A stretch of DNA of 64,000 nt from an uncultured Tenacibaculum sp. (GTDB lineage Bacteria; Bacteroidota; Bacteroidia; Flavobacteriales; Flavobacteriaceae), in the NCBI RefSeq assembly GCF_947495995.1, contig NZ_CANMAX010000006.1, positions 62,001 to 126,000 of the forward strand, in the 5' to 3' direction. Positions 1 to 8,360 of the stretch are shown piece by piece. The translations under genes were made by a program, and so were the position numbers. How positions within the stretch are numbered: position 1 is the first letter of the stretch; each line of letters starts with the position of its first letter. The notes under the pieces are model-generated. The model saw only the letters and a list, made by a program, of their open reading frames with translations. It had not been told where the DNA came from and did not search any database.

Positions 1-650
1 TTTTAGAAGGAATTCAAAAAGAATTTAATGGAACAATTTCAATTGCCGATTTAATTGTTTTAGCTGGTAATACAGGTGTGGAAGAAGCTGCTAAAAATGC
101 AGGACACGAAGTTAGTGTTCCTTTTTCTCAAGGAAGAGGTGACGCTACTCAAGAACAAACAGATTTAGAATCTTTCAGTCATTTAGAACCTCTAGCAGAT
201 GGATTTAGAAATTATATCAATCGGAAACTAAAGAATGTTGCAGATGAAGATTTACTTGTAGATCGTGCCAATTTATTAACGCTTTCTATTCCTGAAATGA
301 CAGTTTTAGTTGGAGGTTTACGTGTATTAGGAGCTAATTACAATAACTCTAAACATGGAGTATTTACTGATACTGTAGGAAGTTTAACTAACGATTTCTT
401 TACAAACATTTTAGATTTTGCGCTAACTTGGAAAGCTACCTCATCTGATGATAAAGAATTTGCTGGTAGTGATCGTAGAACTGGTGCTACTAAATTCACT
501 GGAACTAGAGCTGATTTAATTTTTGGTTCAAATACAGAATTAAGAGCAGTTTGTGAAGTTTACGGTGCTAATGATGGTCAAGAAAAATTCGTTAACGATT
601 TTGTAAAAGCTTGGGCAAAAGTAATGGACTTAGACAGATTTGATTTATAA
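1..650 (+). CDS. katG: Catalase-peroxidase KatG, C-terminal part (5' truncated by window edge)
   Basis: This is the last part of a bifunctional haem catalase-peroxidase, which removes H2O2 and organic peroxides. The frame is open from the first base, so the 5' end and the haem-binding half lie outside the window. The visible ~216 residues match the C-terminal peroxidase-like domain of KatG: the stretches [36 protein letters not shown]-like ([15 protein letters not shown]) and the closing [16 protein letters not shown] are very typical of the family. The gene ends in TAA followed by a strong hairpin terminator, so it is the last gene of its transcript. Family assignment is near certain; nothing can be said about its start or promoter. 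Confidence 0.95.
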
Positions 651-757: not shown

Positions 758-765
758 TATATTTG
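758..765 (+). promoter_or_regulatory. Bacteroidota -7 element upstream of the His-rich small gene
   Basis: TATATTTG matches the Bacteroidota -7 consensus TAnnTTTG exactly. It lies 27 bases upstream of the TTG start at 793, giving a leader of about 20 bases. No convincing -33 TTG at the right spacing was found, so the call rests on the -7 box and its position. Confidence 0.55.
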
Positions 766-792
766 CAACTTTGATGCAATAAACCCTTAAAA

Positions 793-1140
793 TTGAAAAA
801 ACTCCAAAGCATAACAGGTTTCTTTCTGTCTTGTGTTATCTTATTAACACACTTTGTTGTTTTATTTCATACACTTCAGCACCAAAATCATCATGAAATC
901 CATCAGCATTCAGATGATATATCGCATACTGACCAATTACTACAAAACTCTGAGATTGATGAAGATTGTAATATTTGCAAAATTTATGTAGATGTAGATT
1001 TCAAAGAAGATCAAATTTTAAATTCAGAATTTTCTCATACTGAATTTTTCAGCAATAAAGTTTCACAAAGAAAAAATTCTTTTACTTCTCTTGTACTTTA
1101 TTCCAAGCAATCGAGATCACCACCTTTACATACAATTTAG
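793..1140 (+). CDS. Small histidine-rich membrane-anchored or secreted protein, putative metal binder
   Basis: This 115-residue protein of unknown function starts at a TTG codon; no in-frame ATG lies upstream, and the -7 box at 758-765 fits this start. Residues 4-27 form a hydrophobic signal or membrane segment. A histidine cluster follows (HTLQHQNHHEIHQHSDD, ~26-42), then a CxxC pair (DCNICK, ~58-63), and the protein ends with SRSPPLHTI. Signal, His cluster, CxxC and a C-terminal Pro-Pro are reminiscent of small metal-linked proteins such as DUF2946 or the HYC_CC_PP type, but I cannot assign it to either. It comes first before an ABC/TonB operon, with a 134-base gap and no terminator between, so a periplasmic metal-binding role is a reasonable inference. 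Confidence 0.6.
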   Translation: MKKLQSITGFFLSCVILLTHFVVLFHTLQHQNHHEIHQHSDDISHTDQLLQNSEIDEDCNICKIYVDVDFKEDQILNSEFSHTEFFSNKVSQRKNSFTSLVLYSKQSRSPPLHTI

Positions 1141-1274
1141 TACTATAACTAATACATAAAGCAACTGCTTTTTATTAGTTAACATGTACTTCTTTTTCAA
1201 GCTAGCAAAATAATTGCTACATATCAAAATCTTACTCTGTAAGAATATATCTATTATTTTTTAATACCATCGTT

Positions 1275-1967
1275 ATGTTAGAAGCAAAAAAGCTTAACAT
1301 GCGCTACAACGATAAAATAGCGCTCAAAGATTTAAGTTTTTCAGTAGCTCCGGGAGAAATCTTTTGTCTATTAGGACAAAACGGAGCTGGTAAAACTACT
1401 ACAATCAATATTTTTCTTGGTTTATTAGAACCAACATCTGGAGAAGCTTTAATAAATAATTCTTCTATTACTAGTGATTCGTCTATTAGAAGTTCTATTG
1501 CATACATTCCTGAAATTGTTCAATTATACGGCAATTTATCAGGATTGGAAAACTTAGATTTTTTTAGTCGTTTAGCTGGTTTTAATTACAATGAAGAAGA
1601 ACTTTCTCAATATTTAATAAAAGCCAATTTACAACCAGAAGCTTTTAAACAAAAATTAAGTACTTACTCTAAAGGTATGCGACAAAAAGTAGGTATTGCA
1701 ATTGCATTAGCAAAAAACGCTACTTACATTTTAATGGATGAACCTACATCTGGTTTAGATCCAAAAGCTTCTGTTGAGTTTGCTAATACTTGTAAAGAGT
1801 TATCGGCTAACGGAGTTGGGGTTCTTATGGCTACACACGACATTTTTAATGCAGTAAACATTTGTGCTCGAATTGGAATAATGAAAGAGGGAACATTAGT
1901 TCATATCGCTGAAACAGAAAATATTTCTGCACAAGAATTACAAGAATTATACATCAAAACAATTTAA
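1275..1967 (+). CDS. ABC transporter ATP-binding protein (ABC-2 type partner)
   Basis: This 230-residue cytoplasmic ATPase subunit has all nucleotide-binding motifs: Walker A GQNGAGKTT at 34-42, signature YSKGMRQ at 131-137, Walker B YILMDEP at 151-157 and H-loop THD at 187-189. It lacks a long C-terminal extension. This short form with the GMRQK signature is typical of CcmA/NatA/NosF-like ATPases that drive ABC-2 membrane subunits. Its likely partners are the two permeases at 4486-5934 and 5936-7276, although a TonB receptor gene lies between. The start is the ATG at 1275. The substrate is unknown; the context suggests metal or metallophore handling. Confidence 0.85.
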   Translation: MLEAKKLNMRYNDKIALKDLSFSVAPGEIFCLLGQNGAGKTTTINIFLGLLEPTSGEALINNSSITSDSSIRSSIAYIPEIVQLYGNLSGLENLDFFSRLAGFNYNEEELSQYLIKANLQPEAFKQKLSTYSKGMRQKVGIAIALAKNATYILMDEPTSGLDPKASVEFANTCKELSANGVGVLMATHDIFNAVNICARIGIMKEGTLVHIAETENISAQELQELYIKTI

Positions 1968-1986
1968 CCAATATAAATACTAAATA

Positions 1987-4482
1987 ATGAACTTTAGAAA
2001 GTTAGTACTTGGAATCTTTGCATTTCTGGTACATGTAAGTTTTTCACAATCTAAAATCACGGGGAAGGTTTTAGATACTGACAATACTCCAATCTTAGGA
2101 GCGAACATAATTCTAATTAGTGAAGCACAACAGAAGAAAGGTGTTGCTACTGATTTTGACGGTAACTTTATGATTAACACTAGTAAAAGCGGAACATATA
2201 CACTTCGTGTCACTTTTGTAGGATTTGAAACAGTGATTAAATCAATTACAATTTCAGAAAATGAAAATCTAGATTTAGGAACGATCATTTTAAAAGATTC
2301 TGCTGAGATGTTACAATCAGTAGAAATAATTGGTAGAAAACGAAACGATTATAACAGTGATTACTCTTTTTCAGCAACAAAAATTGCTATAAAAAATAAA
2401 GAATTACCTCAAGCTGTTTCTACAGTTACCAAGGAACTTATCTCAGATCGTCAAGCATTTCAATTAACAGAAGCTGTAAAAACAGTAAGTAATGTTTCAG
2501 TAACAGGTTTATATAACCATTACAACATTCGTGGTATTACTCAGGCAGATGACGGACAAGTAGTAAATGGTATGCGTACGCGTCAATACTATTTTATTCA
2601 ACCAATAACCTCACATTTAGAACGTGTAGAAGTAATAAAAGGACCTTCATCTGTTACTTTTTCTAGTGCAGATCCTGGAGGAACTGTAAATATGGTTACT
2701 AAAAAACCTTTAAAAGAAAACTACAGAGAGATATCAATGTCTACTGGAAGTTTTGGGACATTAAGAGCAACTGCTGATTTTACTGGACCTTTAAATGAAG
2801 AAAAGACTTTATTATACCGTTTCAATACAGCATATCAAGAAGCAGATTCTTTTAGAGATATTGTAAATAGCAATACGTTTTTAGTAACCCCATCACTAAG
2901 TTATGTTCCTAATGAAAATACAGCTCTTAATGTTGAAATGATTTACAGCAACGGAGAAGGAAACTTAGATAGAGGTCAGCCTATTTTTACTGCTGTAGGA
3001 GCTGATTATGATCCAAGTAGTACACCAATTAGTTTAAATCCAGGTGCTGCAAATGATTTCTATAAAACAAAAGAAATAATGTTCATGGCAAGTTTTAGCA
3101 AGAAGTTTACTGAAAACTTTGGATTTAACGCTCAATACATGAAGCAAACTTGGGACGAAGATTTACAAGAACACAGAATTGATGCTTTTAACCAAGCATA
3201 TGATATTAGTGGAAATGTAGTTCCGAACTTAGCTGCAATGCGTTATGCTGAGAGACAACAATCTTGGAATACAGATAACTTAAGTGCATATTTTAATTAT
3301 GACATTAAGCATGATAATATCACTAATAAAATTTTAGTTGGTTATGATGCTACTCGTTGGGAAAGAAAAATTGGCGGACAAAATTCTGCTAGAAGATATT
3401 TACTAACTGACGGAACTATAGGTAGATTTAGACCAGGAACAAGTGATCCAAACGATTTTCAACAAGAAAACGGTTTATTAGTTCCTGCTGTGCCACACTT
3501 TGATTTAACAAATCCTTTTAACGGAATTAGAAATACGAGTAACTATGCACTTTCTCAGTTTCAAATTCCTGCGAACTTAACATCTTCAGATGGAATTTAT
3601 ATTCAGAATCAATTCAAAATAGGAAAGTTCTCAGCTTTAATTAATTTAAGATACGAGTGGTTTTCTGATATTTTTGATTATCAAGGAGATGAGCAAAAAT
3701 TTACGCAACAAGCTTTTATTCCAAGACTTGGAGCAACGTATGAGGTTACTAAAGACATTAGCGTATACACTACATATTTAGAAGGTTTTCAACCACATAC
3801 AAATACGGTATCATTATCTCCTTCAGCAGAAGGTTTCTTTTGGGCTGGTTCTCCAGGAAGATTTGATCCTTTAGAAAGTAGTTTAATTGAATTTGGAGCT
3901 AAAGGTTCATTCTTAAACGGAAAAGTAAATGCAAACTTTGCTTTATTTGAAGTAACTCAGAAAAACATTTTACTCGGAGATACTTTTGATACAGATAATT
4001 TAACTACAAGAGGTGAGCAACGAAGTAGAGGTTTTGAAATGGATGTTTCTGGTTTTGTTACTCCGAATTTCCAAGTTACAGCTTCTTATGGTTATACAGA
4101 CGCTAAAATTGTAGACGATTCTATCTTAGAATTTATTGGAGAAAGAATTGGAGGTGCTCCAAAGCATAATGCAAATATTTGGGGTCGTTACGACTTTACA
4201 AATAAAACCTTAAAAGGAATTGGTATTGGTTTAGGTGCACAATATGTAGATGAAAGATACACTTGGTATAATCCAACGTATTTACCTGAAAGAGCTTTAT
4301 TACCTCAATACACTGTTTTTGATGCAGCTGTGTATTATAAACCAAATAATACAGGTATTCAATTAACACTTAAGGTGAACAATTTATTTGATAAAACATA
4401 TTGGTTAGGTGGACTTAATCCATCGAGATTGGCTCCTGGTGCTCCAAGAAATATATTATTAAATGCAACCTATAAATTTTAA
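1987..4482 (+). CDS. TonB-dependent outer-membrane receptor, siderophore type
   Basis: This 831-residue outer-membrane receptor should take up a chelated metal or similar ligand using TonB-ExbBD energy. A signal peptide (1-20, ending in SFSQ) precedes a carboxypeptidase-regulatory-like domain (ITGKVLDTDNTPILGANI, ~24-105) that is usual in Bacteroidota receptors. The plug follows (~130-240), with YNIRG, RVEVIKGPSSVTFSS and GGTVNMVTKKP; this wording is typical of the FhuA/FecA siderophore class rather than SusC. The remainder is beta-barrel, ending in an aromatic residue (NATYKF). It starts 19 bases after the ATPase gene and ends 3 bases before the first permease, so it is cotranscribed with the ABC genes. 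The ligand cannot be read from sequence. Confidence 0.9.
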   Translation: MNFRKLVLGIFAFLVHVSFSQSKITGKVLDTDNTPILGANIILISEAQQKKGVATDFDGNFMINTSKSGTYTLRVTFVGFETVIKSITISENENLDLGTIILKDSAEMLQSVEIIGRKRNDYNSDYSFSATKIAIKNKELPQAVSTVTKELISDRQAFQLTEAVKTVSNVSVTGLYNHYNIRGITQADDGQVVNGMRTRQYYFIQPITSHLERVEVIKGPSSVTFSSADPGGTVNMVTKKPLKENYREISMSTGSFGTLRATADFTGPLNEEKTLLYRFNTAYQEADSFRDIVNSNTFLVTPSLSYVPNENTALNVEMIYSNGEGNLDRGQPIFTAVGADYDPSSTPISLNPGAANDFYKTKEIMFMASFSKKFTENFGFNAQYMKQTWDEDLQEHRIDAFNQAYDISGNVVPNLAAMRYAERQQSWNTDNLSAYFNYDIKHDNITNKILVGYDATRWERKIGGQNSARRYLLTDGTIGRFRPGTSDPNDFQQENGLLVPAVPHFDLTNPFNGIRNTSNYALSQFQIPANLTSSDGIYIQNQFKIGKFSALINLRYEWFSDIFDYQGDEQKFTQQAFIPRLGATYEVTKDISVYTTYLEGFQPHTNTVSLSPSAEGFFWAGSPGRFDPLESSLIEFGAKGSFLNGKVNANFALFEVTQKNILLGDTFDTDNLTTRGEQRSRGFEMDVSGFVTPNFQVTASYGYTDAKIVDDSILEFIGERIGGAPKHNANIWGRYDFTNKTLKGIGIGLGAQYVDERYTWYNPTYLPERALLPQYTVFDAAVYYKPNNTGIQLTLKVNNLFDKTYWLGGLNPSRLAPGAPRNILLNATYKF

Positions 4483-4485
4483 TAG

Positions 4486-5934
4486 ATGAAGAAACAAGTT
4501 GTTATTTTAATAGCAAAACAGTTCTTTAAAAAGACCTTTAACTCTAAAGGTCTTTTAGCTCTATTAGCTATTTTCTTAGTAATTCTTGTTTATGTTACTG
4601 TAGATGGCTGGAATGCTTTTGAAGCAAATCATCATACTATCGAACATCATCAAGATAAAGCAAGAAAAAGTTGGGAAGATAATCCAGATAAGCATCCGCA
4701 TCGTATGGCTCACTTCGGAACTTTTGCCTTTCGAATGCAACATCCGTTACGAATATTTGATTCTGGAATTGAAAGCTATACTGGAAACTCTATTTTCTTA
4801 GAAGCACACAGACAAAATACAGCTAACTTTTCTGAAGCAAGTTTATCAACTGGCTTAGTTCGTTTTGGTGATTTAAACATAGCTATGTTACTTCAGTTAA
4901 TTTTACCGTTAATTATTTTCTTCGTTGGTTACGCTACTATTACTTCAGAAAAAGAAAGCGGAACATTAAAAATCTATTACACTCAAGGTGTAAAGATGAA
5001 AGAACTATTATTCGGAAAATCGTTAGGTTTATTTTTAATTGCTGCGTTGTTTTTTATTCCTGCCTTAATAGCACTTTGGAGTATTACTCTAGTAGATGAT
5101 TTTACTATTGAAAACGGAGCGGTATTAACACGAATTGTTCTTATAACTCTTTGTTATATTTTATTCTACGCTATTTTAAGTTGTATTTCAGTAATTGTAT
5201 CTGGAAAAAGTGCAAATTCGAATAAAGCTTTGTTGAGTTTATTGGGCGGATGGTTATTATTTTTTATCATTATTCCTAAAACTTCTCAAGTTGTTGGTAA
5301 TTCGATTTATCCGAACTTATCTAAGATCGAATTTAGAGCTGAAGTTGAAGAAGAAGTTTCAAAAAAAGGTGATAGTCACGATCCTAATGATCCACATTTT
5401 AATAGACTTCGTGATTCAATTTTAAAAGTTCACAATGTTACTGATGTAAAAGATTTACCCTTCAATTATAGTGGTTTTCTTATGAGTAAAGGTGAAGAAC
5501 AAACGGCTTTAATTTATAATCAAGAGCAAGACAAATTAATTCAATCGTATAAAAACCAAAACAGTATCACAAACAGTTTGGTAATTTTCAATCCTTATTT
5601 GGCGATTAAAAACTTATCCATGAGTTTATCTGGAACAGACTTTACAACTTATGTAGGATTTTTAAATCAGACTGAAGATTACAGATACAAACAATCACAA
5701 TATATGAACGAATTACAAATGAAATTCATTAGTAACAAAGCTACAAGTAGCGAAGGTAAAGTTCATGTTGTTGGAAAAGAATACTGGAAATCTGCTCCTA
5801 AATTTGAATACAAGTTTTTATCAGTAAGCAAAACAATTCAAAATCAAATCTTGGCTTTAGTAAGTCTTTTTGTTTGGTTAATTGCTTCTTTTATAATTAT
5901 GATAAAATTTTCTAACCGTTTTAAAATTATCTAA
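4486..5934 (+). CDS. ABC-2 type permease with large histidine-rich periplasmic loop (DUF3526-like)
   Basis: This 482-residue inner-membrane permease has one TM near the N-terminus (~23-41), a large extracytoplasmic region, then a block of TMs (~130-270), another soluble stretch and a final TM near the C-terminus. This is the layout of NosY/DUF3526-type ABC-2 subunits. The first loop is rich in histidine: HH and HH pairs, then HPH, MAH and MQHP within residues ~48-86. The segment EKESGTLKIYYTQGV after the second TM is the usual ABC-2 coupling region. The gene sits 3 bases after the TonB receptor and 1 base before a second permease. The His-rich loop suggests contact with a metal ion or metal complex, which is inference. 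DUF3526 membership is by recall of its motif pattern. Confidence 0.8.
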   Translation: MKKQVVILIAKQFFKKTFNSKGLLALLAIFLVILVYVTVDGWNAFEANHHTIEHHQDKARKSWEDNPDKHPHRMAHFGTFAFRMQHPLRIFDSGIESYTGNSIFLEAHRQNTANFSEASLSTGLVRFGDLNIAMLLQLILPLIIFFVGYATITSEKESGTLKIYYTQGVKMKELLFGKSLGLFLIAALFFIPALIALWSITLVDDFTIENGAVLTRIVLITLCYILFYAILSCISVIVSGKSANSNKALLSLLGGWLLFFIIIPKTSQVVGNSIYPNLSKIEFRAEVEEEVSKKGDSHDPNDPHFNRLRDSILKVHNVTDVKDLPFNYSGFLMSKGEEQTALIYNQEQDKLIQSYKNQNSITNSLVIFNPYLAIKNLSMSLSGTDFTTYVGFLNQTEDYRYKQSQYMNELQMKFISNKATSSEGKVHVVGKEYWKSAPKFEYKFLSVSKTIQNQILALVSLFVWLIASFIIMIKFSNRFKII

Positions 5935-5935
5935 A

Positions 5936-7276
5936 GTGTATACATTATTAATAAAACAGTTTTTTAGATCGAAAACCGTACTACTTGCCTTTGGAATTTT
6001 AATGCTTTTAGGAATTCTTGGTATTAGTACAGGACGACAGTTTCTTAATCAGAAACAAACTACAATTGAAAAAACTACTGAACAACAAAAAAAGCATATC
6101 GAAAATCAGGTGCACCTGCACAAAGATGACATCGGATTGTTGTTATACTATTTAAAGTTTTCGTTCATTAATGATTTACAACCTACTGCTGGCTTAGCTA
6201 TTGGACAAAGTGATGTGAATTCTCATATTCAAAATGTAAAAATTTTAAATCTTGAGGGACAAAAATATGATACTGATTTAGTAAACCCAATGCGTTTGCA
6301 AGTGGGAAATTTAGATCTTAGTTTTCTTATTATTTTCTTATTTCCTTTAGTAATTATTGCTTTAAACTTCAATACTCTGTCAGAAGAAGAAGAAAACGGA
6401 ACTTGGAAAATGGTGACAATTCAAGGTAAATCTACTTTTCAGTATTTACTCATGAAACTATCCATCAGATTACTATTTGTTTCTATTGTTTTGGCAGTTT
6501 TATTTTTACTCGCAAAAGTGATTTTAGAAATTCCTTTTTCTGGTGATTTTCTTAACATGATCATCATCAGCTATAGTTATATTCTTTTCTGGTTTGTACT
6601 TTGTTTCTTTGTTATCACATTGAGAAAATCATCAAATGCAAATGCAATTACGTTATTAACTAGCTGGTTGGTATTAGTTGTTTTTTTACCAGTATTGGTA
6701 AACAATTACATTACTAATAAATTTCCTGTTGGTGAAGCATTAAGTATGACGATAAAGCAACGTGATGAATATCATAAAAGATGGGATACCGACAAGCAAG
6801 AAACTATGAAAAAGTTTTATGCGCATTATCCTCAATTTTCAAAATATACTGTTGAAGACAAAGGTTTTTCTTGGGTTTGGTATTATGCAATGCAACAAAT
6901 GGGAGATGATGAATCTAAGCTAGAACGTACGCAGATGTATAATAAAATTGAAAAGAGAGCTGAATTGAGTAGAAAAATTGCTCAGTTTTTCCCGCCTTTA
7001 CAAGTGCAATTATCTATGAATACAATTGCAAACACAAGTTTAGCACAGCATGTAAAGTTTTTGAACGCTACTTCTGATTTTCATGAAAGAAAACGTTTGG
7101 ACTTCTATCCTAGAATTTTTGAGAATGAAAGCGTAAATTCTGTTGATTGGAAAAACTATAAACCAGAGTTTTTTAAAGCAGAAAACAACTTTAGCTTAAT
7201 AAAAACGATTATTCCAATTCTTTTATTAACCTTAATTTTGTTAGGCTCAAGTCTTTTTATACACTTCAGAAAATAA
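5936..7276 (+). CDS. ABC-2 type permease, second subunit (DUF3526-like)
   Basis: This 446-residue inner-membrane protein has the same layout as the preceding permease: an N-terminal TM (~12-32), a long outer loop, a TM block (~125-255), a soluble stretch, and a C-terminal TM ending at residue 446. The coupling-like segment EEEENGTWKMVTIQGKS matches the place of EKESGTLKIYYTQG in its partner. It starts at GTG one base after the preceding stop, which suggests translational coupling. Together the two would form a heterodimeric membrane core for the ATPase at 1275-1967. ABC-2 complexes are usually exporters or extractors, so its pairing with a TonB receptor gene is unexpected. Confidence 0.8.
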   Translation: MYTLLIKQFFRSKTVLLAFGILMLLGILGISTGRQFLNQKQTTIEKTTEQQKKHIENQVHLHKDDIGLLLYYLKFSFINDLQPTAGLAIGQSDVNSHIQNVKILNLEGQKYDTDLVNPMRLQVGNLDLSFLIIFLFPLVIIALNFNTLSEEEENGTWKMVTIQGKSTFQYLLMKLSIRLLFVSIVLAVLFLLAKVILEIPFSGDFLNMIIISYSYILFWFVLCFFVITLRKSSNANAITLLTSWLVLVVFLPVLVNNYITNKFPVGEALSMTIKQRDEYHKRWDTDKQETMKKFYAHYPQFSKYTVEDKGFSWVWYYAMQQMGDDESKLERTQMYNKIEKRAELSRKIAQFFPPLQVQLSMNTIANTSLAQHVKFLNATSDFHERKRLDFYPRIFENESVNSVDWKNYKPEFFKAENNFSLIKTIIPILLLTLILLGSSLFIHFRK

Positions 7277-7282
7277 ATCAAA

Positions 7283-8335
7283 ATGAAATATTTAATTGGT
7301 ATTCTATGTTTTTTGTGCACTAACGCATTGTTTAGTCAGTTTTCTTTTCAAGGAGAAACTATCACGGCTGGAACAAAGAAACATTTTAAGATTCCTATTT
7401 CAGATAAAAATCATAATACATTTATTCCAATAACTGTTTTCTGTGGAATAGAAAAAGGACCTACTTTAGGAATAACCGCTGGTGTTCATGGTTATGAATA
7501 TCCACCAATTATAGCAGGACAACGATTGATTAAAAGTATAGATCCTAAAACTTTGAAAGGAATCGTAATTTTAGTTCAAATTGCTAATGTTGGTAGTTTT
7601 TCAAATAGATCTCCGTTTGTAAACGCTCTGGATAAAAAAAACTTAAATAGAACTTTTCCAGGAGACGCTAACGGTACTGTTACTGAAAAGATTGCTGATT
7701 TCATCACCAAAAATGTAATTGCAAAATCAGATTTTTTTCTTGATGTTCATGCTGGAGATGCTTCAGAAGATTTAATGCCTTATTCGGCTTATTACTCTAA
7801 TAAATCAATGAATTCAGCATCTTCCGCTGGAAGAAAAATGGCGGAAGCATTACTTTTTGATCATATCGTTATTTTTAATACTGACGGAAAAGATTATGTA
7901 AAAAAAGATAAGCCTAGTTTATATTGCTCTGCGGAGGCTTTTAAAAGAAATATTCCTTCAGTAGACATTGAATGTGGACGATTAGGAATGGTTGAAAATG
8001 CAGCTGTCCTTAACATAGAAAAAGGTATACTGAATATGTTATTGCATTTAAACATGAGAGTTAGCTTAGAAAAGTCAATTCAGAAAAATTCATATTTATT
8101 TATTGAAGATCGCACTTATCAGAGTAGTTCTTATGATGGAATCTTTTATCCTGTAAAGAAATCTGGAGATTATATTGCAGAAGGAATGACCATTGGAAAA
8201 GTAACCGATTATTTCGGTAAAACACTCGAAACGATCTACGCTAAAGCTGATGGTATAATTCTGCTAACTATAGGAACTCCACCTGTAAATAAAGGAGAAA
8301 CATTATTAGTTATTGGAAATGTAAAAAAACATTAA
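7283..8335 (+). CDS. Exported zinc deacylase, succinylglutamate desuccinylase/aspartoacylase (AstE/AspA) family
   Basis: This 350-residue M14-like metallohydrolase of the AstE/AspA family should cleave an N-acyl or amide bond. The zinc and substrate residues are present: HGYE (H69, E72), NRTFPG (N122, R123), DVHAG (H156) and a later acidic residue in DIECG (E230) that matches the general base position. The C-terminal ~80 residues form the usual beta domain. Unlike cytosolic AstE and aspartoacylase, it has a clear signal peptide (1-18, ending LFSQ), so it acts in the periplasm or outside. It is the last gene of the TonB/ABC operon, 6 bases after the second permease, and ends in a terminator. 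The substrate may be what the TonB receptor imports; that is inference. Confidence 0.82.
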   Translation: MKYLIGILCFLCTNALFSQFSFQGETITAGTKKHFKIPISDKNHNTFIPITVFCGIEKGPTLGITAGVHGYEYPPIIAGQRLIKSIDPKTLKGIVILVQIANVGSFSNRSPFVNALDKKNLNRTFPGDANGTVTEKIADFITKNVIAKSDFFLDVHAGDASEDLMPYSAYYSNKSMNSASSAGRKMAEALLFDHIVIFNTDGKDYVKKDKPSLYCSAEAFKRNIPSVDIECGRLGMVENAAVLNIEKGILNMLLHLNMRVSLEKSIQKNSYLFIEDRTYQSSSYDGIFYPVKKSGDYIAEGMTIGKVTDYFGKTLETIYAKADGIILLTIGTPPVNKGETLLVIGNVKKH

Positions 8336-8360
8336 AAGCCTTAATCAATTAAGGCTTTTT
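8334..8360. terminator. Bidirectional terminator shared by convergent genes
   Basis: An 11-bp perfect stem (8334-8344 with 8349-8359) with loop TCAA has a poly-A left edge and poly-T right edge. It includes the last bases of the deacylase stop and the stop codon of the convergent AI-2E family gene, so both messages end within it. Confidence 0.85.

Follow-up and report, generated by a model that had tools for sequence, protein, structure and literature searches.

A probable Zur-controlled zinc-acquisition operon with two DUF3526 permeases in marine Bacteroidota

Which metal is handled, and in which direction, by an operon that combines a siderophore-type TonB-dependent receptor (TBDT) with an ABC-2 transporter and an exported amidohydrolase? 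We examined such an operon in a stretch of 64,000 nucleotides from an uncultured Tenacibaculum sp. (the window). Its six plus-strand genes formed one unit, and the ORFs and Pfam matches confirmed all six components named in an initial annotation. The small first gene was separated from the ATPase gene by 134 nt. The following gaps were 19, 3, 1 and 6 nt, within the 1–20 bases first reported, and the only convincing terminator found in a scan of the unit was the one already placed at the operon end. By eye, the gene upstream was the C-terminus of katG, terminated by a hairpin and T-run at ~676–707. The features were:

758 to 765, plus strand: predicted -7 promoter element TATATTTG (TAnnTTTG type; sequence reading and Bacteroidota promoter consensus)
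763 to 779, plus strand: predicted Zur operator TTGCAACTTTGATGCAA, one mismatch to the consensus TTGCAACnnnGTTGCAA, overlapping the -7 element
793 to 1140, plus strand: first gene, small exported or membrane-anchored His/CxxC protein (ORF; conserved residues in relatives)
1275 to 1967, plus strand: ABC transporter ATPase, putative ZnuG counterpart (Pfam ABC_tran 1.8e-29)
1987 to 4482, plus strand: TonB-dependent receptor of the siderophore-receptor type, putative ZnuK counterpart in role (Pfam, TIGR01783)
4486 to 5934, plus strand: ABC-2 permease 1 (DUF3526), with invariant H72, H76, E106, H108 and E337 (Pfam, NosY profile and fold)
5936 to 7276, plus strand: ABC-2 permease 2 (DUF3526), in which the invariant His site is missing (Pfam, NosY fold match)
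7283 to 8335, plus strand: exported AstE/AspA-type (DoeB-like) metallo-amidohydrolase, a lineage-specific accessory (Pfam, active-site motifs, PDB relatives)
8334 to 8359, plus strand: bidirectional intrinsic terminator at the operon end (11-pair stem, T tail on either strand)

The small protein had a TTG start, 10 His, a C59xxC62 motif and a C-terminal RSPP. Its H26, H30, C59 and P110-P111 were invariant in 28 relatives, with C62 and R108 kept in at least 90%, and many related operons start with a similar H...H...CxxC...PP protein. There was no trustworthy match for it in Pfam or NCBIfam, and an attempt to name its family found nothing convincing there.

With respect to regulation, a palindrome with the consensus TTGCAACnnnGTTGCAA overlapped the predicted promoter of the operon. 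TAnnTTTG is the known Bacteroidota -7 consensus, and the element beside the operator was conserved in Tenacibaculum-type loci. The whole genome had just two operator sites with 0–1 mismatch, one at the operon promoter and one in the putative zur/merC-folE intergenic region. An intergenic site with two mismatches lay in a run of genes that included an HMA lipoprotein and a ZigA-like COG0523 GTPase (NF038288, 2e-171). In the related loci (n = 58) we detected 21 sites at 0–1 mismatch, against 0.4 expected, nearly all preceding zur, merC, COG0523 genes or this transporter operon. The predicted operator is common to the operon, the putative zur gene and other zinc-homeostasis genes, as in a Zur regulon. 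In the phylum sample, a box with at most two mismatches was present in 10/24 zinc-type and 1/16 type C loci (Fisher p 0.03), and one with at most one mismatch in 6/24 and 0/16 (p 0.06). This contrast, modest by itself, agrees in direction with control by Zur. Against such control counts that several orthologous operons, including Tenacibaculum ones, had no recognisable operator (L033/L055, L057, L061, L071). The putative zur product is a Fur-family protein called Zur from its genomic context; the family models fail to separate Zur from Fur, and its score was slightly higher with Fur models.

The 7-3-7 form of the operator was derived from the related loci. It took the place of a pattern with a 5-nt centre, TTGCAAnnnnnTTGCAA, rejected with 413 matches at two mismatches against 433 for the reversed control. 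At up to three mismatches the 7-3-7 form gave 207 vs 172 matches in the whole genome, close to noise, and we therefore used only the 0–1-mismatch sites and the positions of the 2-mismatch sites. Another palindrome, TAGCAAAATAATTGCTA (~1203–1219, in the gap that follows the small gene), was not conserved in relatives and was dropped.

The ATPase, TBDT and permeases 1 and 2 recurred, with their order kept, in dozens of loci that span several Bacteroidota families. Co-conservation, the check attached to the initial annotation, thus held for a four-gene core but not for the AstE-like gene, which was part of the unit in only 9/58 loci (8 with the duplicate records L033/L055 counted once; the set includes the window itself, L052). 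These loci belonged solely to Tenacibaculum and one Seonamhaeicola MAG. Recurrent neighbours of related operons were a Fur-family regulator, MerC, GTP cyclohydrolase I and COG0523, and no biosynthetic family recurred among the linked genes of the related loci. In 14 control genomes, DUF3526 was detected in Caulobacter only.

Both permeases carried a DUF3526 domain (2e-28 and 1e-26), each plus ABC2_membrane_2 (Pfam). The outer loop of permease 1 is indeed His-rich, as first proposed (His 49, 50, 54, 55, 70, 72, 76, 86 and 108). H72, H76 and H108, together with E106 and E337, were invariant in 60/60 sequences, and the invariant residues sit in large periplasmic segments. In 16 DUF3526 loci with no zinc context, neither permease had the three His, and this candidate metal site, tracking the zinc context, would tie DUF3526 to zinc. 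Permease 1 matched NosY by profile (2.1e-12) and its 11 best fold matches were NosY; for permease 2 the best fold matches were NosY chains (probability 1.00, E 0.02). The receptor had Plug, TonB barrel and N-terminal CarboxypepD_reg domains (Pfam) and scored 277 bits with TIGR01783 (NCBIfam TonB-siderophor), above the cut-off of 223.5. Its nearest solved relatives in the PDB were the enantio-pyochelin receptor, FhuA and FoxA, all siderophore receptors, which counts against a zinc reading.

The predicted Zur operator, the zinc-regulon neighbours and the invariant His/Glu site bear out the earlier proposal of metal handling, and because of them we infer that the metal is most likely zinc. Taken together, this operon of marine Bacteroidota probably serves to acquire zinc under Zur control, as a ZnuK/ZnuGHI-type system, and it looks like the counterpart of a little-studied zinc system of Caulobacter. 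ZnuA was not found in this genome, and the sole ABC-3 match reads as FecCD-like, with ZnuB absent as well. ZnuA was present in 0/11 sampled genomes with this operon type vs 128/296 in the sample (counts uncorrected for phylogeny). The operon may stand in for the absent ZnuABC. The two ZIP genes of the genome could import zinc, which counts against the zinc-acquisition reading.

We propose that, in zinc-replete cells, a Fur-family repressor (Zur) would sit on the palindrome over the promoter, and that the six genes would be made when zinc falls. The TonB receptor would bring zinc, free or complexed, through the outer membrane. The ATPase and the two NosY-like permeases would form a heterodimeric ABC-2 machine with a large periplasmic part, in which the invariant HxxxH and ExH (plus Glu) site of permease 1 could replace a separate binding protein. 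ATP hydrolysis would push zinc onward, most likely to the cytoplasm, substituting for ZnuABC. At the inner membrane, on its outer face, the small HxxxH/CxxC protein might buffer zinc or pass it on. That the ABC-2 part alone transports zinc inward we put at about even; ABC-2 systems usually export or act outside the membrane, which counts against import.

The AstE-like protein matched AstE_AspA_cat (Pfam, 4e-26) and keeps H69xxE72, NRTFPG, H156 and E230; H69, E72, H156 and E230 were invariant in 8 relatives, aligned with 3cdx. Its PDB relatives were 3cdx (4e-23), 3na6 and DoeB (6twl/6twm), and it failed the DoeB equivalog TIGR02994 (112 bits vs a cut-off of 402.7). We consider it an accessory gene. 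In Tenacibaculum and a relative, it may hydrolyse an amide-linked zinc ligand imported by the receptor. It could well act instead outside the transport chemistry, as a Zur-regulated accessory or back-up metalloenzyme, with the rest of the zinc-starvation model unchanged; we hold this possible, if somewhat short of likely. Its narrow occurrence within the unit fits such a role, as do a distant exported relative (40%) in an unrelated gene context in G052 and the frequent presence of accessory or back-up enzymes in Zur regulons, e.g., amiA/amiC, folE2 and pyrC2 (PMC6103462). However, the protein retains the zinc-ligand pattern H..E..H and would therefore need metal itself. Moreover, the genome showed no exported AstE with a housekeeping role; its two other copies adjoin ATP-grasp-like genes.

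The place of action is also debatable. NosDFY acts in the periplasm, and a similar mechanochemical device, with ATP-moved periplasmic domains that either take zinc from its ligand or carrier or load it into a periplasmic acceptor, would leave import to the ZIP proteins. The NosY matches by profile and fold, the periplasmic position of the invariant residues, the export of the small HxxxH/CxxC protein and AstE, and the ZIP genes favour this reading, but a NosD-like partner is missing and the complementary pattern with ZnuA suits import better. We regard it as doubtful. The initial annotation had suggested a chelator cycle for a metal it did not name; with zinc as that metal, a small zinc-binding molecule would leave through the ABC-2 part, return in loaded form through the TBDT and be cleaved by AstE in the periplasm. 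A siderophore-type receptor, the frequency of exporters among ABC-2 families and an AstE-type amidase in the same unit agree with it. Yet biosynthesis genes do not recur next to the operon, most operons are without AstE, an outer-membrane export partner is absent, the periplasmic His/Glu site is left without a role, and NosY, the closest relative of solved structure, is part of a complex that handles a metal; chelator recycling or secretion is thus improbable. An operon serving iron or copper, controlled by Fur or by a copper regulator and with zinc neighbours only by coincidence, seems to us similarly hard to credit. NosY is the permease of a copper system, and both the FhuA/FoxA/pyochelin relatives of the receptor and the Fur scores of the regulator point that way, but the operator is common to ZigA-type COG0523, MerC and FolE genes, and the Caulobacter counterpart is zinc/Zur-regulated (PMC4176598).

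Returning to zinc acquisition, a more specific version appears unlikely: a NosY-like ABC-2 machine that needs no binding protein, acts on zinc at the built-in periplasmic HxxxH/ExH site and uses ATP to detach the metal, in the periplasm, from a ligand supplied by the receptor, which in Tenacibaculum would then be broken down by a periplasmic amidase dedicated to it. Whether a metal can be taken up by an ABC-2 transporter that has no binding protein, or is instead passed on outside the membrane, is a question made testable here. Zinc acquisition in Bacteroidota is poorly described, and the operon suggests an importer for genomes without ZnuABC, connects DUF3526 with NosDFY, an ABC-2 complex of solved structure that is linked to a metal, and gives the phylum a predicted Zur operator. 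In the open-access literature searched, this gene set is not the subject of any zinc study and DUF3526 is not named, and the accessible parts of two Flavobacteriales papers (PMC11960050, PMC9976891) do not describe the operon.

Among known systems, ZnuABC would share the Zur-controlled high-affinity zinc role, but it is a different ABC class with a binding protein, which the operon lacks in a genome without ZnuA and ZnuB. Siderophore receptors (TIGR01783; FhuA, FoxA) share family and PDB matches with the operon receptor; unlike them, the latter goes together with ABC-2 genes and predicted control by Zur, with no siderophore ABC importer alongside. The metal-linked NosDFY complex has a permease that resembles those of the operon in fold and profile. 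In contrast, it serves copper and N2O reductase where zinc is predicted here, and uses one permease instead of two different ones; the operon permeases are ~200 residues longer than NosY, largely in two periplasmic segments, and neither the ORFs nor the Pfam matches of the unit include a NosD-like gene. DoeB and AstE/AspA proteins (6twl, 3cdx) share the catalytic domain and active-site motifs with the operon AstE, which differs by an N-terminal signal-like helix and is therefore probably periplasmic.

The closest system is that of Caulobacter crescentus, whose znuK (TBDT) and znuGHI (ABC-2 ATPase, two ABC-2 permeases), CC1517–CC1520, are repressed and bound by Zur, with znuK required for growth under zinc depletion (PMC4176598). 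The gene set initially held to lack a named system thus has one for its core. The Caulobacter control genome gave no ZnuA match. There, znuK and znuG have separate promoter sites, whereas here the receptor lies within the operon; the operator is GTTAn5TAAC there and TTGCAACn3GTTGCAA here; and the accessible text names neither a small His/CxxC protein nor AstE. GTTAn5TAAC operators were sought in Sphingomonas loci and not found. Separately, GATATn3ATATC-like palindromes, two mismatches from the Caulobacter pattern, precede the ATPase gene in L086, L088 and L089. We judged likeness to ZnuG/H/I by gene set, with Sphingomonas loci having an adjacent divergent TBDT (L088, L089) as sequence stand-in; their homologues (~30–35% identity) keep the invariant permease residues. 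Common to both systems are an operator in the shared promoter region and the ZnuK/ZnuGHI-type arrangement found in this operon, in which the genes for an ABC-2 ATPase and a pair of ABC-2 permeases adjoin that for a TonB receptor (PMC4176598).

All six genes of the initial annotation were confirmed at their positions, and its domain calls were backed by Pfam and NCBIfam: a small His/CxxC protein, an ATPase, a TonB receptor (TBDT), two DUF3526 ABC-2 permeases and an AstE-like amidohydrolase. The intergenic spacing from gene 1 to gene 6 was 134, 19, 3, 1 and 6 nt, and a strong bidirectional terminator was found at the 3′ end. The genome is Tenacibaculum-like, with its closest loci in Tenacibaculum. 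The gene 5′ of the operon (window 1-650) seems to encode the C-terminal end of a catalase-peroxidase (KatG), and the same gene lies 5′ of the operon in several Tenacibaculum loci.

Co-conservation of the gene set held in related loci for a four-gene core and failed for AstE. In the loci collected with permease 1 as query, the order ATPase-TBDT-permease 1-permease 2 was conserved in genomes labelled Tenacibaculum, Polaribacter, Kordia, Aquimarina, Maribacter, Cyclobacteriaceae, Chryseolinea-type and Pedobacter. The ABC genes stood without a receptor in two Saprospiraceae loci, and in a few related loci the ATPase gene was placed last. Only Tenacibaculum loci and a single Seonamhaeicola MAG had AstE after permease 2. 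Many of these operons began with a relative of the small opener, in which H26, H30, one Cys and the terminal PP were invariant (28 sequences) and one further Cys and an Arg almost invariant. In L034:825-3390, L059 and L061, the small protein and ATPase were duplicated in tandem 5′ of the operon, the extra ATPase having just 54–56% identity to that of the window.

DUF3526 was detected in 46 of 296 Bacteroidota genomes chosen independently of the operon, and 40 of these loci were inspected. A TBDT lay directly inside the transporter unit in 11 (L125-L134, L147). Several of 13 further loci (type B) had COG0523, DUF3299-like or FtsX genes adjoining the transporter. Sixteen loci (type C) had a weaker DUF3526 match, no TBDT, COG0523, DUF3299-like or FtsX genes, and mostly a different upstream gene pair. 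The type C loci (L148-L163) encoded a ~500-aa exported protein (NPCBM_assoc match in L150), a ~250-aa PDZ-like protein, an ATPase and two permeases; no zinc genes accompanied them. The zinc-linked type B operons L135, L136, L138 and L142 encoded a protein of 726-755 aa (DUF5916/CBM9_1 match in L135, the other copies similar by eye), which could be an outer-membrane partner replacing the TBDT.

Recurring neighbours were a Fur-family regulator, a MerC protein, GTP cyclohydrolase I (folE) and COG0523 GTPases. The COG0523 protein of the window’s genome matched the zinc metallochaperone GTPase ZigA (2e-171; 570 bits, slightly below the cut-off of 600). The regulator is a putative Zur, named from its neighbours and operator context; family models did not tell it apart from Fur. 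Promoters of these zinc-context genes carried the palindrome TTGCAACnnnGTTGCAA. At 0-1 mismatch, 21 sites were found in 1.15 Mb of loci versus 0.4 expected under a first-order Markov model, the motif being derived from the same loci and the sites not being 21 independent events, because the loci include near-duplicate records and relatives. Nearly all were 5′ of zur, merC, COG0523 or the DUF3526 transporter. The window’s genome had only two such sites, one between zur and merC-folE and one in the window:

763-779, predicted operator, 13 nt 5′ of the first gene, overlapping the TATATTTG promoter element

Some orthologous operons among the related loci scanned had no recognisable site. Elsewhere in the window’s genome, L182:9252-14930 is a putatively Zur-linked run of a ZigA-like GTPase, a LolD/FtsX-type ABC transporter, a DUF3299-like protein and a 5′-nucleotidase-like pair, followed by a 2-mismatch intergenic operator site and an HMA lipoprotein.

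Neither ZnuA nor an ABC-3 permease was found in the window’s genome, where the single weak permease match reads as FecCD; two ZIP genes were present. No ZnuA turned up in the 11 genomes that have a window-type receptor in the unit (G000, the window’s own, and G052, G078, G136, G189, G205, G221, G233, G257, G261 and G296), whereas 128/296 genomes of the whole sample had it (Fisher p 0.003, phylogeny ignored). Type B genomes often had ZnuA.

Hydropathy predicts two large periplasmic segments in permease 1 (~46-126 and ~270-445). H72, H76, E106, H108 and E337 were invariant in 60 permease 1 sequences, including Sphingomonas and an Opitutae MAG, in alignments weighted mostly to marine Flavobacteriia. 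In the 16 type C loci the three histidines were absent from both permeases, and the two glutamates were retained in some. NosDFY is the ABC complex of nitrous oxide reductase for copper handling, and NosY is its permease. The 11 best PDB matches of the permease 1 AlphaFold model (pLDDT 89) were all NosY chains, and its sequence profile matched NosY at 2e-12; NosY was also the top match of permease 2, more weakly (E 0.02).

We favour a route in which zinc would enter through the TBDT, bind to a periplasmic site on the ABC-2 machine itself and be driven onward by it, probably into the cytoplasm. The relation to NosDFY leaves room for a machine that acts wholly within the periplasm. Export of a chelator by the ABC-2 part, as initially proposed, found no support in the gene neighbourhoods. 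In AstE, which is exported, the metal and catalytic residues are retained; hydrolysis of an imported zinc ligand is one possible role, and that of an accessory enzyme tied to the regulon another. Two AstE paralogues of the same genome (L183:8213-10044 and L184:8684-11073) have no obvious signal peptide and adjoin ATP-grasp-like genes, possibly as amide-making/amide-breaking pairs.

In Sphingomonas (L086, L088, L089), GATATn3ATATC-like palindromes in the promoter region 5′ of the ATPase, which in L088 and L089 is divergent from a TBDT, are possible alphaproteobacterial Zur sites. In Caulobacter crescentus, according to PMC4176598, Zur binds and represses the TBDT gene znuK and znuGHI, the genes for the ATPase and two permeases of an ABC-2 system; growth under zinc depletion requires znuK and znuL. 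A text search of that paper found no znuGHI mutant, and ABC-2 transport in Caulobacter is therefore also annotation-based. Of the 14 control genomes, Caulobacter alone had DUF3526, and it was not among the controls with ZnuA. Given this gene set, the predicted Zur control and DUF3526, the operon is best classed as a Bacteroidota version of the znuK/znuGHI system, the proteins being likened by family and gene content. New in comparison are the receptor within the operon, the small H/CxxC opener and the optional AstE, together with a predicted Bacteroidota operator, the relation of the permeases to NosY and the invariant permease 1 site.
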